Both the position numbers and the translations under genes were made by a program. The notes under the pieces are model-generated. The model searched no databases and was not told where the DNA came from. It saw only the letters and a program-made list of their open reading frames with translations. From a virus: a DNA stretch of 35,327 bases. The stretch is taken from positions 1-35,327 of the IMG/VR virus record IMGVR_UViG_3300027522_000013. One strand, given 5' to 3'. Below are positions 1-35,327 of this stretch, one piece after another (position 1 is the first letter of the stretch; each line of letters starts with the position of its first letter).

Positions 1-136
1 CGGAACACAGCGTTACAAGATTGTTGAGGAAGCTATTAAAATGGGCTTTTCAGGAATCGGAGTTGCTTCTAACTTTATTCATGTTGACATCCGCGACTTG
101 GACACTAACGAGTCTCCTGTAATGTGGACGTACTAG
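1..136 (+). CDS. M15-type peptidase (endolysin), C-terminal part
   Basis: This is the last 44 codons of an open frame that enters from the window edge and stops at TAG 134-136. It holds the second half of a zinc D-Ala-D-Ala carboxypeptidase-like domain. The segment GFSGIGVASNFIHVDIR contains the distal zinc-ligand His and the typical FIHVD signature of the M15 family. Its N-terminal half is at 35119-35327 at the other window end. The gene therefore lies between the small and large terminase genes and would cut peptide cross-links of the host wall at lysis. The large terminase begins one base after the stop. The assignment is firm for the family; the role as endolysin is inferred from phage context. 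Confidence 0.8.
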   Translation, partial: GTQRYKIVEEAIKMGFSGIGVASNFIHVDIRDLDTNESPVMWTY

Positions 137-137
137 T

Positions 138-1391
138 TTGGCTGATTTAGAGGTAAAACTATTACCTTGGCAGCAAACAGTATATGAAGACAAGACACGC
201 TTTAAGGTTATAGCAGCAGGTAGACGTACAGGTAAGTCACGACTAGCTGCATGGGCTTTAATACTTAATTGTTTGTCAGCCAAGAAAGGTCAGGTGTTCT
301 ACGTTGCCCCTACACAGGGTCAGGCTAGGGACATTATGTGGCAAATGCTTCTTGAGCTTGGACATGCTGTCATTGCTTCCAGCCATGTTAATAATCTACA
401 GATAAAGTTTGTCAATGGCGCACTCCTGACACTCAAGGGAGCCGATAGACCAGAGACAATGCGTGGTGTCAGCCTTAAGTTCCTTGTTATGGATGAGTAC
501 GCAGACATGAAGCCAGAGGTGTGGGAGCAGATCCTGCGTCCTGCACTTGCGGATCAAAAAGGTGATGCAATGTTCATTGGTACGCCAATGGGTCGGAATC
601 ACTTCTATGATCTATACCAATACGCTAGTATTAGTGAAGACGATACATTTGTTGGCTATCACTTTACAAGCTTTGATAACCCCTTGCTAGATCCTGAAGA
701 GATTAGAGCTGCTGAAAAATCAATGTCAGCCTTCTCTTTTCGACAGGAATTCATGGCATCTTTTGAGGCTCACGGTAGCGAGCTGTTTAAGGAAGATTAT
801 GTTAAATTTAGTGAAGAAGAGCCTAACGATGGTGACTATTACATTGCTGTCGATTTGGCAGGATTTGCAGACGTACAGAAAGTCACTACCAAAACTAAGC
901 GTCTTGACCAAACGGCTATTGCTGTGGTTAAAGCGGGTACTGAAGGTTGGTGGGTTGCTAATATCATACATGGGCGATGGGGCGTTGAAGAGACTGCCAG
1001 AAAAATCTTTGAAGCAGTCAGAGACTACAGACCTTTAGCCGTAGGGATTGAGAAAGGCGCACTAAAGAACGCTGTACATCCTTACCTAAACGATCAAATG
1101 AAGAAGAACCAACGGTTCTTTAGAGTTGAAGAGCTTACACACGGCAATAAGAAGAAAGTAGACAGGATTGTGTGGGCTTTGCAAGGTCGTTTTGAACACG
1201 GCAACATTTCCTTAAACAAAGGTAGTTGGAATAGTCAGTTTTTAGATGAGTTATTTCAGTTTCCTAATCAATTAGTCCACGATGACTTGATAGACGCACT
1301 GGCATATATAGATCAACTTGCAAAAGTTTCCTATGCTTTCGACTATGAAGAAGAAGACTACGAATTCCTAGACAAATACGCAGGGTATTAA
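138..1391 (+). CDS. terL: Terminase large subunit
   Basis: This is the DNA-packaging motor ATPase and headful or end-cutting nuclease. The 417-residue product has a Walker A loop AAGRRTGKS (residues 26-34), a Walker B LVMDE (115-119), and a C-terminal RNase H-like nuclease with YIAVDLAG (Asp 238), GIEKGALK and the closing HDDLIDALAY motif. Length is normal for podoviral large terminases. The frame is closed by a stop at 120-122 and the only reasonable start is TTG at 138, just after the endolysin stop; no strong ribosome site is visible, which suggests translational coupling. It is followed after two bases by the portal gene, the usual packaging order. Confidence 0.95.
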   Translation: MADLEVKLLPWQQTVYEDKTRFKVIAAGRRTGKSRLAAWALILNCLSAKKGQVFYVAPTQGQARDIMWQMLLELGHAVIASSHVNNLQIKFVNGALLTLKGADRPETMRGVSLKFLVMDEYADMKPEVWEQILRPALADQKGDAMFIGTPMGRNHFYDLYQYASISEDDTFVGYHFTSFDNPLLDPEEIRAAEKSMSAFSFRQEFMASFEAHGSELFKEDYVKFSEEEPNDGDYYIAVDLAGFADVQKVTTKTKRLDQTAIAVVKAGTEGWWVANIIHGRWGVEETARKIFEAVRDYRPLAVGIEKGALKNAVHPYLNDQMKKNQRFFRVEELTHGNKKKVDRIVWALQGRFEHGNISLNKGSWNSQFLDELFQFPNQLVHDDLIDALAYIDQLAKVSYAFDYEEEDYEFLDKYAGY

Positions 1392-9799: not shown

Positions 9800-10045
9800 A
9801 TGACAGACCGTACAGACGCAGAACTAGCAGTAGACTTCACAGCAATGGGACACAGCATTGCATTGATTACAGACGTAATCGCAGGAAACAGCATGGCAGA
9901 AGATGATGCCGCAGATAGGCAGGACTGTGTTGATCGTAACACTCAGCACCTTGAGCTTATGAAAGCTAAGAGCGATTGGGGTAGTGAGAGTTTTACCGCT
10001 ACTGACTCAGCTATCTCAGCAGGTAATGGCTACACCGCATCATGA
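9800..10045 (+). CDS. Small phage protein, unknown (81 aa)
   Basis: ATG 9800 follows the fibre gene by 5 bp and gives 81 residues: an acidic start (MTDRTDAELAVDFTAMG), a mixed helical middle and a Ser/Thr/Gly-rich end. A longer in-frame start at 9683 would lie inside the fibre gene and is unlikely. The stop overlaps the next ATG (ATGA at 10042-10045), so the two genes are probably translationally coupled. No domain is recognised. Confidence 0.65.
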   Translation: MTDRTDAELAVDFTAMGHSIALITDVIAGNSMAEDDAADRQDCVDRNTQHLELMKAKSDWGSESFTATDSAISAGNGYTAS

Positions 10046-10203
10046 GTTATTTAATAGACCTGTATGTACTTGCAACTTCACTAGTGACTATCGCTAGTGT
10101 TGTTTGTAACTACACAGACACGCCTAAGGACGATGCGCTTGTAGCTAAAGCGTATAAGTTACTTGAGCAGTTTGCATTCTTAGGTCACAAGGGAAAGCAG
10201 TAA
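10042..10203 (+). CDS. Small single-pass membrane protein (53 aa)
   Basis: The product starts MSYLIDLYVLATSLVTIASVVC, a hydrophobic segment of about 20 residues, followed by a polar KDDALVAKAYKLLEQ helix and a basic tail. The gene overlaps the previous one by 4 bp. Similar micro-proteins with a TPKDDAxVAK motif after the membrane helix occur near lysis genes of marine phages. It could be part of the lysis set, but no function is shown. Confidence 0.65.
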   Translation: MSYLIDLYVLATSLVTIASVVCNYTDTPKDDALVAKAYKLLEQFAFLGHKGKQ

Positions 10204-10207
10204 CCCT

Positions 10208-10930
10208 ATGAAAGGTGCATTAATTCTCATTTTAATGTTTTTTTTTGCAACTGCATTGGGTCAAGAAGAACCAATGGGCGATACGGACTCAACCAACAAT
10301 CAAGATGGTAATTTAAACACTAACACCGTTGGTTCAACCGTTAGTTCTAACAACCAAAGTAAAGATGAAAGTGTTTCCAATACTTACAATGGGGCAGGAT
10401 CATCTTCTGATATGCCAGTTGGCAGTGCCATCGCTCCTAGTTACATGTCCAACGGAATGGAAACATGTCTAAGCGGTAGCGGTACATCTATTCAAACAGG
10501 TTTAATCGGTTATACCAAAGGCAGTTATCAAAAGGATGTTGACTGCAATAGAAGACGTGATGCAAAAACACTTAGCGATCTTGGCATGAAAGTGGCGGCC
10601 ATTGCTAGAATGTGTGAAGACGTTAAAGTGTGGCGTAGTCTTTTTATATCAGCAACACCTTGTCCAGTATTGTCAAGCGGTCGTTTGGTAGTGGGTAAAA
10701 GAGCATTCTTATTAATGAAAATGCAACCTAGTTTATACATACCAGATTATGGTGATGTTTATTTAAAGCGAACTGCAACATGGTCTAAGAAAATCCCAAC
10801 ACCAAGATACACAGAAACTCAAGAATGGTACAATTCAATTTTAGGAATAGGTGCAGAAGATGAAAACAAAGATGAAGAAAGCAATATTGTTGAGTCTGTT
10901 TCTGACCAGTTCCGCAGTGCAAGGAAGTGA
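10208..10930 (+). CDS. Exported cysteine-containing phage protein, unknown
   Basis: The 240-residue product begins with a clear Sec signal peptide (MKGALILILMFFFATALG, cleavage probably before QEE). An Asn/Ser-rich linker follows, then a compact domain with four cysteines (in ETCLSGSG, VDCNRRRD, ARMCEDVK and TPCPVLSS) that could form two disulfides in the periplasm. Exported soluble phage proteins are unusual outside lysis, superinfection exclusion or virion assembly. The next gene is also exported and overlaps this one by about 70 bp. I recognise no named domain. Confidence 0.75.
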   Translation: MKGALILILMFFFATALGQEEPMGDTDSTNNQDGNLNTNTVGSTVSSNNQSKDESVSNTYNGAGSSSDMPVGSAIAPSYMSNGMETCLSGSGTSIQTGLIGYTKGSYQKDVDCNRRRDAKTLSDLGMKVAAIARMCEDVKVWRSLFISATPCPVLSSGRLVVGKRAFLLMKMQPSLYIPDYGDVYLKRTATWSKKIPTPRYTETQEWYNSILGIGAEDENKDEESNIVESVSDQFRSARK

Positions 10931-11720
10931 ATTAGATTCTTTAATTGCAACTTCTTCTGCCATTGTTGACCAAATTAATAAAGGGATTTTAATGACAGGC
11001 GCGGCTATGGGGTATTCCCACACTGGCACTGGTATTTCTGATGGTCAATTAGCAGGTACAGCATACATATCTAGTGATCAAGTCTTAGCATATAACGCGG
11101 CTTTGTCTGGCATGGTTTCATATATGCCTTATGGTTCAGCAGAACAATACCTCGAAGAACAAGCAGAAGCAGAACTTCAGTTGATGGAGGACGCCATAGA
11201 TGTGTTTACTACCGTAGTAATAGACATGGTTGCAGTCCAAGAAGTTTCTGAATTAGCTTCCGAAGCGTCAACTCCTGACGATGAAGCGGCTGTGCAAGAA
11301 TATGTGACTAACAACACTGATGCACTTACTATAGATCAGGATGACGCTGATACTTACAATCAATCTTTGGATGACATAGAGATACATGCTAACGCGGCAG
11401 GTGCTTTCTTAGGTGTAGCGGCCAACGCTGATGCTGTTGCTTTCTTAGATCAAGGCGCAATGGATAATAATACTCGCATTGAAGACAACACTCTTAGCTA
11501 CAGTGCATCCAACCAAGCGGTTAGTTTAGCTTGGATTTCTGGCAATCCTGCTACAGATGTTTATGTGAACGGCACAGATCAATTTAATATTAATCTTTAT
11601 GTCAGCCATGCGGATATCTTAATTTCAGGAGAGTCTAGTGAACTCTACCTTACTGGTCCTACCTATCTTGGTTATGAATGCTTTGTTACTCAAACTAACT
11701 GTGAAGAAGGTGAAGGGTGA
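10860..11720 (+). CDS. Second exported phage protein, acidic, unknown
   Basis: Starting at ATG 10860 the product is 286 residues with a signal peptide (MKTKMKKAILLSLFLTSSAVQG, cleavage before SELDS). A closer ATG at 10872 would give the same mature protein. The mature part is acidic and Ala-rich with a likely helical centre and a beta-rich end containing two cysteines (YECFVTQTNC). It overlaps the preceding gene by about 70 bp in another frame and ends in a GTGA overlap with the next start. The two exported proteins probably work together; the function is unknown. Confidence 0.7.
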   Translation: MKTKMKKAILLSLFLTSSAVQGSELDSLIATSSAIVDQINKGILMTGAAMGYSHTGTGISDGQLAGTAYISSDQVLAYNAALSGMVSYMPYGSAEQYLEEQAEAELQLMEDAIDVFTTVVIDMVAVQEVSELASEASTPDDEAAVQEYVTNNTDALTIDQDDADTYNQSLDDIEIHANAAGAFLGVAANADAVAFLDQGAMDNNTRIEDNTLSYSASNQAVSLAWISGNPATDVYVNGTDQFNINLYVSHADILISGESSELYLTGPTYLGYECFVTQTNCEEGEG

Positions 11721-12226
11721 GCCTAGAGAATACAGAACTAAAAATAGGCGATGTATCTTTTAAGGGTGTCTATATTGCCATTTTGTTTAGCTTGGCAACA
11801 ACATTAGGTGGGGGCGTCTGGACGGCAAGCAGTCTATATAGCAGACTTGAAGCTGTAGAATCTACGCAAATACCTGACATAGCACCGCTTGAAGAATCAG
11901 TTTTAACAAACAGGCAAGAGTTAAATGCTCAAATAGAACTGATTAAACAAGAATTAAAAGATAATAATGTATCGCAGTTGCAGGGCAAACTTGCCACGCT
12001 TGGTACTAACCTAGTGACTATACGAGATCAACAGGAAAAACTGTTAGCGATTGACTCAAGCGTCGATCAGTTGGAAAAAGACATATCACGCATGATGGCT
12101 ATTGTAGAAAAAGCTGAATTGCTGACTAAGGCAATGTCTGACCTAGACGCAAGAATGAAGGTATCCCAAAGAGAAATTGAAGATCTTTGGCAAGGCATGG
12201 ACTACATTAGTAATCCTTTAAAATAA
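11717..12226 (+). CDS. Membrane-anchored coiled-coil protein, spanin-like
   Basis: GTG 11717 overlaps the previous stop (GTGA). The 169-residue product has a short cytoplasmic N-terminus, one membrane segment (about residues 16-36, VYIAILFSLATTLGGGVW) and then a long coiled coil (residues 45-155). That is the topology of an inner-membrane spanin (Rz-like), which with an outer-membrane partner fuses the envelope at lysis. Holin-type genes follow directly. No Rz1-like lipoprotein is evident, so it may be a unimolecular variant or a structural anchor. The assignment is by topology only. Confidence 0.5.
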   Translation: MSLENTELKIGDVSFKGVYIAILFSLATTLGGGVWTASSLYSRLEAVESTQIPDIAPLEESVLTNRQELNAQIELIKQELKDNNVSQLQGKLATLGTNLVTIRDQQEKLLAIDSSVDQLEKDISRMMAIVEKAELLTKAMSDLDARMKVSQREIEDLWQGMDYISNPLK

Positions 12227-12263: not shown

Positions 12264-12434
12264 ATGGGTGAACCAACTAAAGAAGCGTTAGATGTAGTAG
12301 CAGCCTCAACAGCAGTATTGTCTCTTGCCTCTTGGTTGCCTCCTACTGCTTCTATTTTGACTATAGTTTGGTTAGGTCTACGTATTTGGGAATCTGAGAC
12401 AATACAAAATATAGTTAATAAAAAACCTAAGTAA
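12264..12434 (+). CDS. Holin-like small membrane protein (56 aa)
   Basis: ATG 12264 with an AAGGAA site gives 56 residues: MGEPTKEALDVVAA, a hydrophobic stretch (STAVLSLASWLPPTAS), a second one (ILTIVWLGLRIW) and a basic end (VNKKPK). The WLPPxAS-LTIxWLxLRIxESET signature resembles class II-like holins of podoviruses. It would open the inner membrane at lysis. Position between the spanin-like gene and the three-TM holin supports this. Confidence 0.65.
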   Translation: MGEPTKEALDVVAASTAVLSLASWLPPTASILTIVWLGLRIWESETIQNIVNKKPK

Positions 12435-12472: not shown

Positions 12473-15665
<3,193 letters not shown>

Positions 15666-15666
<1 letters not shown>

Positions 15667-32818: not shown

Positions 32819-32911
32819 TCATAATAGATTGACTCCCAATAGATAGACAAGCGTTATTGTACACCATGTACAAATTGCAACTGTCAACCAATCCATCTTG
32901 CGCTTGTTCAT
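32819..32911 (-). CDS. Tiny membrane protein (30 aa), unknown
   Basis: ATG 32911 overlaps the stop of the Gp88-like gene (ATGA) and has a GAGGTG site. The product is MNKRKMDWLTVAICTWCTI followed by more hydrophobic residues, a basic head plus one membrane segment. It is very short, but the coupling and ribosome site favour a real gene. Confidence 0.5.
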   Translation of the reverse strand: MNKRKMDWLTVAICTWCTITLVYLLGVNLL

Positions 32912-33588
32912 TGTGTCACCTCTATAGTCTGTATTAGGTTTTTAATTTGTTTGAGCATACTAACGCCATGAGCGGGATATGCAACATGTTTTACTGTTTT
33001 ATTCCAACATGCTCTACATGGTCCACATTTGCCCTCGCGTGTACCAGCCTCACACAACGTCATTACAGGCGTTAGATACTCGCGGCTGGGTATAATTGTG
33101 CTAGTGTTGGCCGCTTGTATCAATTCACCTGTCACGCTATCGCTGGACAATCTAACAACTACATTCGGTAGCTTTTGCATATCAGCAAGTACAGGCATAA
33201 ACTTTTTAAACTTATGCATACGCGTTGGTAGCCAATGATTGCACCAAGGAGTAGCGGCCATAACTGACAATATCTTTTTAGCCAACCGTAGGTCGTAAAC
33301 ATCGCCTGAATCAAACCACCTAAAATAGCGATCATTGTCTAATTCCGCAACCATTACAGCTACCCAGTCCGCTTGTTGCCAGTCCTCGCGATTATGCTCC
33401 CTTGGTGCTTTTACGTTGGGAAACCTATAGTTACCTGTAGTGGCATAGCAACCCTTACAAGCTGGCACTAGATCGCCCTTGCTATCCTTAGACGCTGGAC
33501 AAGTATCAAGTGCTTGCAATGACCATGAACGACAAGGCATCTTGCTGGGTCTGCTAAATTTTGGTTGTGCATTCATGAATTTAACCAT
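32908..33588 (-). CDS. Gp88-like cysteine-rich phage protein, possibly radical-SAM-like
   Basis: ATG 33588 with a GGAGG site gives 226 residues. Features are SWSLQALDTCPAS, then CKGCYATTGNYRFPNV, a central FRWFDSGDVYDL, VVRLSSDS, and the C-terminal CGPCRACWNKTVKHVAYPAHG. The pattern C...CxxCYA early, SGD in the middle and CxxCxxCW late matches the 'gene product 88' family of mycobacteriophages, and more loosely the Gp37/Gp68 phage proteins. The clustered cysteines suggest an iron-sulfur or zinc site on a barrel fold; function is unknown. It lies at the upstream end of the early leftward row. Confidence 0.65.
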   Translation of the reverse strand: MVKFMNAQPKFSRPSKMPCRSWSLQALDTCPASKDSKGDLVPACKGCYATTGNYRFPNVKAPREHNREDWQQADWVAVMVAELDNDRYFRWFDSGDVYDLRLAKKILSVMAATPWCNHWLPTRMHKFKKFMPVLADMQKLPNVVVRLSSDSVTGELIQAANTSTIIPSREYLTPVMTLCEAGTREGKCGPCRACWNKTVKHVAYPAHGVSMLKQIKNLIQTIEVTQ

Positions 33589-33589
33589 A

Positions 33590-33931
33590 TTATGCCTCCT
33601 CCTCTGCTCTCGAACCCGTATCAATTAACCATTCTGCTTTTGTTTCTTTAGCTTTAATATACGCATCGTGCCATGTGGCTAAACCCTCTGTTACTCTGGG
33701 ATCACGCAACACCACCTCGCGGCTCCGTTTAACAAAGGCTTCACCTACAAGTTTCTTTGCAAATTCTAGGACCGCATTGCCTTTCTTTTCATAATCTTCG
33801 CCTATAGACCAACAAGATGAATCTTTACCGCCTGAGGTATCTATATAAGCTAAAGTCTTCCAGTGTTGTGATTCGGTTGATAATTTTAAATCTTCGAGCC
33901 TACCTTGTATTAGTATCTCTAGCTTATTCAT
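33590..33931 (-). CDS. First leftward early protein (113 aa), unknown
   Basis: This gene is nearest the leftward promoter and so would be the first phage product made from that transcript. ATG 33931 has an AAAGGTAG site. The product is helical and charged (MNKLEILIQGRLEDLKLSTE ... WLIDTGSRAEEEA), with no recognised motif. First-position early proteins often act on host transcription or defences; that is context only. Confidence 0.65.
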   Translation of the reverse strand: MNKLEILIQGRLEDLKLSTESQHWKTLAYIDTSGGKDSSCWSIGEDYEKKGNAVLEFAKKLVGEAFVKRSREVVLRDPRVTEGLATWHDAYIKAKETKAEWLIDTGSRAEEEA

Positions 33932-34715: not shown

Positions 34716-35132
34716 TTGAGTAGCGAAAAGCAATCTAAAGAGGGTCAGTCCGCGAAGCGGATTGGGCGGCCAAAAAAGAAAGATGTTGTGTCAAAGACAA
34801 CAGGCTCCCGTAACAAGGTAGGTCGTCCTAAAGGTGATGCTTCAATCATCAACGACTATAAAGCTAGGATGCTTGCTTCCCCTAAGTCTAGGAAGGTCTT
34901 GGATTCTATATTGTCAGCAGCCTTGGACGATGATCATAAGAATCAAGCAGCGGCTTGGAAGTTGTGTATGGATAGATTACTGCCCGTTAGCTACTTTGAG
35001 AAAGATAAGGCAACTGGTGGAAAGAGTGCAATCAATATATCAATCACAGGCGTGGGTGGAGAAACTACTATCATCTCAGGCGGTAACGAACAAGAACCCA
35101 TTGAAGGGGACTACACTGATGTCGAGCATTGA
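34716..35132 (+). CDS. terS: Probable terminase small subunit with two AT-hooks
   Basis: TTG 34716, behind an AAGGGA site, gives 138 residues. Two AT-hook motifs (IGRPKKK about residues 16-22 and VGRPKGD about 36-42) precede a helical region (NDYKARMLASPKSRKVLDSILSAAL, AAWKLCMDRLLP) and a beta-like tail (INISITGVGGE). A DNA-binding head plus oligomerising helices, one gene before the large terminase apart from the endolysin, fits the small packaging subunit that recognises viral DNA. It overlaps the endolysin start by 14 bp. Confidence 0.75.
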   Translation: MSSEKQSKEGQSAKRIGRPKKKDVVSKTTGSRNKVGRPKGDASIINDYKARMLASPKSRKVLDSILSAALDDDHKNQAAAWKLCMDRLLPVSYFEKDKATGGKSAINISITGVGGETTIISGGNEQEPIEGDYTDVEH

Positions 35133-35327
35133 TCAAGAGCTAAAGTACTTTGCTAAAGCAGAGTTTGCCTGTCAGTACACAGGTGAGAATGAAATTAAAA
35201 ATGATTTCTTAATAAAACTTGATAGCTTGCGCGATGTCTGTGGTTTCCCTTTTATAATAACAAGTGGTTTTAGATCAAAAGACCATCCCATTGAACGAAG
35301 CAAGGAAAATTTAGGAACTCATGCCCA
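35119..35327 (+). CDS. M15-type peptidase (endolysin), N-terminal part
   Basis: ATG 35119 overlaps the small terminase stop and gives 69 residues before the window ends. FIITSGFRS and KENLGTHA are the M15-family motifs, the latter carrying the first zinc-ligand His. The C-terminal half is at 1-136. Joined directly, the frame continues (CA + C gives His) but the short segment with the family's zinc-binding Asp (HxxGxAxD) would be missing, so some tens of bases may lie between the window ends. Confidence 0.8.
   Translation, partial: MSSIDQELKYFAKAEFACQYTGENEIKNDFLIKLDSLRDVCGFPFIITSGFRSKDHPIERSKENLGTHA

Follow-up and report, generated by a model that had tools for sequence, protein, structure and literature searches.

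Organisation of the locus

The window, by which we mean the whole stretch of DNA analysed, is a single IMG/VR virus contig of 35,327 bases. Its gene order is TerL, SU10-like portal, scaffold, capsid, two fibres, A, B, C, a 56-aa transmembrane (TM) protein and a three-TM holin. The features that concern us are listed below.

10042..10203, plus strand: 53-aa ORF with a hydrophobic N-terminus, directly upstream of A; at most a candidate member of the module
10208..10930, plus strand: A, exported protein of 240 aa, ATG start
10860..11720, plus strand: B, exported protein of 286 aa, ATG start
11717..12226, plus strand: C, protein with a single N-terminal TM segment followed by a periplasmic coiled coil
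12264..12434, plus strand: 56-aa single-TM protein, between C and the holin
12473..12856, plus strand: three-TM holin (PF11351 GTA_holin_3TM, phrog_3427)
35113..35322, plus strand: N-terminal part of an M15 (phrog_894) endolysin, cut by the record end
5..148, plus strand: C-terminal part of the same endolysin gene, at the record start just before TerL

The reading frame of B opens at a GTG at 10851 and ends at 11720; the ATG at 10860 is the better start and gives the 286-aa product. A and B lie in different frames and overlap by 71 nt counted from 10860 (80 nt from 10851), in agreement with the preliminary description of this DNA, which had put the overlap at about 70 bp. B and C overlap by 4 nt, and the holin starts 247 nt downstream of C. 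The family of the 56-aa TM protein is found near the module in 17 of 58 non-redundant loci and also in relatives without A-B-C (non-redundant sets, here and below, were made by shared 4-mers with thresholds of 0.6 to 0.85).

The two endolysin pieces match different parts of one profile, phrog_894 positions 38-112 at 35113-35322 and positions 126-180 at 5-148, with about 13 profile positions unaccounted for between them. As the M15 gene is divided between the two ends of the record, the contig, although labelled "linear", probably represents a circularly permuted genome, close to complete, that encodes both holin and endolysin.

Elsewhere in the window, the interval between holin and adaptor (12856-15666) encodes a protein of 936 aa that contains long repeats of PTPTPV and DTG/TTG and has a weak collagen-repeat match, and the minus strand at 32908-33624 encodes a homologue of the GP88 family (PF17338, E 2.5e-31).

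The A, B and C proteins

By our own heuristic, both exported products carry the Sec signals that had been claimed for them. That of A occupies residues 1-18 (MKGALILILMFFFATALG, followed by QEEP). It is succeeded by a stretch rich in Asn, Ser and Thr and predicted to be disordered (residues 23-83), and then by a folded Cys core at about 85-215. The four cysteines that had been noticed in one exported protein are those of A, at 87, 113, 136 and 152, and they are invariant in a 14-sequence alignment as well as in a 54-sequence one. Beyond the signal, no further convincing TM segment was found in A. The window A has an SPase I-type signal and lacks a lipobox; among pelagiphage-type loci, a lipobox is present on A itself in 6 of 31. 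The AlphaFold model of A has a good core, for which Foldseek returned no match in the PDB (best E 1.5), and a sequence search of the PDB with A found nothing. Residues 28-152 match phrog_20531 (E 8.6e-10). In public records, CRP-810 gp53, labelled "OmpA family protein", is an A protein, with no Pfam match at E 0.1.

Protein B likewise starts with a Sec-type signal by the same heuristic (MKTKMKKAILLSLFLTSSAVQG, followed by SELD). It has one marginal 19-aa hydrophobic window (KD 1.51), which falls inside a helix of the AlphaFold model; the latter is an all-helical bundle with a small C-terminal part, at pLDDT 88. Foldseek found nothing for it in the PDB (best E 0.33, generic helical proteins), and sequence search of the PDB gave weak helical matches only.

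Protein C, which had been described as a coiled-coil membrane protein starting at 11717, has one TM segment near residues 13-36 followed by coiled-coil periodicity, with a best heptad window of 0.92 that was reached in 15 of 1000 shuffles. It would be oriented N-in, with an i-spanin-like topology. A terminal NPL motif is invariant in 28 of 28 aligned members and is retained in the shorter C of pelagiphages. Against spanin families, the best match of C was phrog_739 at a non-significant E of 0.052, and one of the 28 aligned C proteins reaches E 0.0069 against a spanin family; no Pfam match lies above the cut-off.

Some further observations concern C in other phages. Two genes labelled "lysozyme", at L079 3292-3873 (CRP-207 gp73) and L080 7327-7749 (CRP-810 gp51), actually encode C, a TM coiled coil. 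Pelagiphage C genes (L228 9995-10318, L200 9183-9536 and others) have a His-rich stretch in the middle of the coiled coil, such as TSHSHDFDHTHD, for which metal or pH sensing is possible. In some pelagiphages a second TM coiled-coil gene lies between A and B (L170 7770-8150, L179 6032-6397, L192 4994-5374).

The preliminary description had made its proposal depend on conservation of the signal peptides in relatives, and the signals are indeed kept. The heuristic passes 97 of 111 non-redundant A proteins, 62 of 62 non-redundant B proteins and 39 of 40 pelagiphage-type B proteins, but only 3 of the 371 ORFs taken from these loci as controls; ORFs whose start lay no more than 90 nt from the beginning of the locus were dropped from the counts. 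Since 55 of 104 C proteins pass as well, signal peptides are not separable from N-terminal anchors by this means.

Distribution of the module

Among 58 non-redundant A loci, B follows in 53 and C in 52, always in this order, and the exceptions all end shortly after A or B at the end of the locus. A, B and C are one gene module. The window type of B is present in 45 non-redundant loci, in 43 of which the overlap with A is 56-86 nt, the other two overlaps being longer. In SAR11 phages, A and C occur with an unrelated exported B: a protein with an N-terminal domain, a long Glu-rich linker and a C-terminal part, whose N-terminal domain has a weak CBM_4_9 match only. Homology between the two B types is not detectable (hhalign probability 0.1).

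Relatives of A were found by tblastn in 11 of 50,697 phage records, namely six SAR11 phages (including the T4-like Mosig), the Roseobacter phages CRP-207 and CRP-810, one Votkovvirus and two uncultured phages. HTVC027P, for which PMC12753301 presents transcriptomics, has no A relative among the phage-collection matches listed. Scans of IMG/VR gave 40 loci for A and 47 for B, and three further A queries gave at least 587, at least 547 and at least 395 stretches encoding A relatives. Two contig pattern scans with roseophage-type A queries, whose patterns reach close relatives only, detected no host or prophage copies.

Within the window's own lineage, 32 of 80 loci with relatives of its capsid protein (MCP) were taken for comparison. 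In 14 of these the sequence continues for at least 6 kb beyond the capsid gene, the shorter ones being dropped, and A is present in 5 of the 14. This rules out A as a core gene of the capsid lineage. We found no description of the trio in the open-licence literature.

A lipoprotein related to A

Directly upstream of A, the phages CRP-207, CRP-810 and ct7L0027 have a gene, A0, for a small lipoprotein. Its product has a lipobox, and the lipid cysteine and four further cysteines are invariant in 12 of 12 proteins. The A0 profile matches the Cys core of A with a probability of 97.3 % and an E of 2.5e-11. A strict pattern finds A0 in 18 of 44 non-redundant roseophage-type loci, a count to be read with the fact that the pattern misses the A0 of CRP-207 and of ct7L0027. 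A sequence search of the PDB with A0 gave one weak match only (E 0.74). The homology of A0 and A, together with the lipobox on some pelagiphage A proteins, is the main evidence in the sequences that A may act at the outer membrane.

Position in lysis cassettes

Of 38 non-redundant loci with flanks, loci without 2.5 kb on both sides being dropped, 29 have a homologue of a holin or an endolysin no more than 2.5 kb from the module, and 20 have one within 50 nt. The seeds for "holin homologue" include the phrog_2524 family and an EF-hand 2TM protein, neither of which is annotated as a holin in the library; without them L130 and L142 are lost and the count becomes 27 of 38. In L003, L037, L055 and L105 the order is M15 endolysin-A-B-C-holin with gaps of at most 15 nt. 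In the roseophage-type loci L427, L439, L443 and L487, A0-A-B-C stands with the EF-hand 2TM gene, a holin-like phrog_2524-type gene and an M15 or GH108 endolysin.

The position is not universal. No lysis homologue lies within 2.5 kb in nine of the 38 loci, and most of the 44 non-redundant roseophage-type loci have none among the seeds used. In CRP-810 the holin and endolysin are about 23 kb from the module, and Baldr and HTVC202P have the module beside TerL and the endolysin elsewhere.

Relation to spanins

The window contains no credible lipoprotein gene, its two lipobox ORFs both being antisense to genes and distant, and therefore it has no canonical spanin. A credible lipoprotein gene was likewise not found in Votkovvirus S28C10. 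In the 11 lysis cassettes scanned, the sole credible lipoprotein is A0 (six of roseophage type) or there is none (five of window type). A u-spanin HMM found no match in 250 (redundant) A loci. In the reverse direction, 2 of 80 u-spanin loci, the near-identical L404 and L408, hold A0-A-B-C beside an intact u-spanin; the order in L404 is M15-small TM-A0-A-B-C-u-spanin-TerS-like gene-TerL.

The slot next to TerS can be compared among related phages. In the HMO-2011-type phages CRP-345 and CRP-1 it holds the EF-hand 2TM gene, an M15 endolysin (phrog_465) and a lipoprotein-TM u-spanin; that of CRP-345 (gp68, "spanin2 family") matches phrog_1804 at E 1.7e-4. CRP-207, which lacks a u-spanin, has A0-A-B-C adjoining its EF-hand 2TM gene in the corresponding region. 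The slot of CRP-212 and CRP-738 contains neither the module nor a u-spanin. In the window's lineage, the near-whole records G005 and G006 lack A, and no credible lipoprotein gene was found in them; therefore the lineage can lyse without the module or a recognisable substitute. Strict replacement of a spanin by the module is thus ruled out, both by the loci with module and u-spanin together and by G005 and G006, with neither module nor credible lipoprotein.

Other phages without A-B-C have other genes in the slot or near lysis genes. In G010, of the window's lineage, the matching slot, if the record is circular, is occupied by a TM coiled coil and by three further proteins: one small and exported, one a lipoprotein and one lipase-like. 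In the slot of L337, a relative without A-B-C, a lipase-like protein (13161-13865, minus strand; GHSLGG motif, by eye) lies beside a small lipoprotein, and the two might be another envelope-breaching set. Proteins of about 150 aa with a C-terminal TM segment occur near lysis genes in L317 (5989-6447), L301 (12115-12579) and L339 (4323-4784).

Proposed role and alternatives

It is recognised as unsolved how the outer membrane is opened by phages in which no spanin can be identified. According to a 2018 survey, 91 of 677 genomes had no spanin, and proteins of other types might take over the task (PMC6139136). The module described here is widespread and occurs in SAR11 and Roseobacter phages, and its proteins have no functional annotation, or "lysozyme" and "OmpA family" labels that our searches do not support.

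We propose, at roughly even chances, that A-B-C is a late lysis-cassette module acting as a spanin-like, multi-component, envelope-bridging device that breaches the outer membrane, belonging by sequence to no known spanin family. Membership of lysis cassettes in several lineages, the anchored coiled coil and the lipoprotein relative all point to such a role. The sequences themselves show the genes, their order and overlap, the conserved export signals, the Cys core, the A0-A homology and the nesting in lysis cassettes. The preliminary description had offered, among other options, a two-part outer lysis device working with the 11717 protein. The outer lysis device is partly supported and has the most support of these options, as A, B and C co-occur and, in many loci, sit in lysis cassettes; "two-part" was too few, there being at least three parts, and four in roseophage-type loci. 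Our confidence is capped by the co-occurrence with a u-spanin and by the accessory distribution, and the window A has no lipobox to explain a hold on the outer membrane, which counts against the spanin-like reading. The same is true of the loci in which the module stands away from lysis genes, CRP-810 among them, and of CRP-212 and CRP-738, with neither system in the slot.

The device might work as follows. C would be the inner-membrane partner, N-in, with one TM segment, a periplasmic coiled coil and the conserved NPL as a docking tail. A would be the partner on the outer-membrane side, soluble in the window phage, predicted to be lipid-anchored in some pelagiphages and accompanied by its paralogue A0 in roseophage-type loci, and B would be a periplasmic connector whose fold is swapped between lineages. 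All parts would be made late, with Sec exporting A and B before lysis. Once the holin fires and the endolysin cuts the peptidoglycan, the complex would be freed to pull together or disrupt the membranes. In this scheme we infer the late timing, the localisation, the formation of a complex and the act on the outer membrane.

More tentatively, A-B-C(-A0) may represent a class of outer-membrane-breaching device not yet described, distinct from spanins and from disruptins and made of a Cys-rich protein on the outer-membrane side, a periplasmic connector that can be exchanged and a coiled coil anchored in the inner membrane. Its use by widespread SAR11 and Roseobacter phages would account for part of the "spanin-less" phages. 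We hold this wider claim to be possible rather than probable.

Superinfection exclusion, or late modification of the envelope, is unlikely but accommodates several of the facts. A (with A0) at the outer membrane and B and C in the periplasm would jointly mask receptors or keep out the DNA of a second phage. An accessory module in the window's lineage, its co-occurrence with a u-spanin, its presence in different phage types including the T4-like Mosig, and the replacement of B in pelagiphages by a protein that weakly matches a carbohydrate-binding domain would all suit such a system, and exclusion systems such as Cor have small lipoproteins of comparable size. It fits poorly with those several loci in which the module is nested between endolysin and holin genes a few nt away; moreover, A, B and A0 have no match to PADLOC models, and C has coiled-coil matches only.

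We consider control of lysis a rather less likely role. The periplasmic proteins would restrain the holin or endolysin next to them or set it off, for instance as a sensor of lysis inhibition. Cys-containing periplasmic proteins can be antiholins, T4 RI being an example, and the abutment of module genes on holin or endolysin genes and the presence of the module alongside a u-spanin in L404 would be in keeping with this. Yet the module is found with holins of different types and with M15, GH108, amidase or GH24 hydrolases, it lies far from the holin in CRP-810, and three or four proteins are many for such a task.

It is improbable that the proteins form an exported late surface or matrix set, an adhesin or a decoy shed with cell debris, acting through the low-complexity Asn/Ser/Thr stretch of A; this N-terminal stretch recurs in relatives even though it is predicted to be disordered, but C and the lysis-cassette position would be left unexplained. 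That the products are virion components with a removable leader, as their place beside the fibre genes in the window might suggest, is very improbable given the conserved Sec-type signals of A and B, the TM anchor of C and the varying position of the module relative to structural genes.

If the spanin-like reading of A-B-C is true, concrete genes are named here for a direct lysis assay; if the module is instead an exclusion system, it is still a widespread and unstudied envelope complex.

Comparison with known systems

One close analogy is with the two-component spanins, such as the Rz/Rz1 pair of phage λ. Like Rz, C is a coiled coil anchored in the inner membrane; the exported partner or partners are encoded in overlapping neighbour genes at a lysis-cassette position; and roseophage-type loci have a small lipoprotein, A0. 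The lipobox typical of Rz/Rz1-type o-spanins, however, is absent from A and B of the window, which have SPase I-type signals, and is present in roseophage-type relatives by way of A0. Furthermore, the module comprises three to four genes over about 2 kb, and the window C has no significant match to Rz/Rz1 families.

The u-spanin (gp68 in CRP-345) resembles the module in occupying the lysis slot beside TerS, in phages that are sisters of CRP-207; it differs in being one protein with an N-terminal lipobox and a C-terminal TM segment, and no such ORF exists in the window. Lipoproteins of the Cor superinfection-exclusion type resemble A0 alone, as small envelope lipoproteins. A and B of the window have no lipobox, and the Cor model matches just one of the 12 A0 proteins (E 0.02), the match being confined to the signal peptide. 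As for phrog_20531, a family of unknown function matched by the window A, by pelagiphage A and by 6 of 12 A0 proteins, it gives no information on the trio.

Because the window has no lipoprotein feature and its proteins match no spanin family, we would not classify the module as a two-component spanin, although it may function in the same way.
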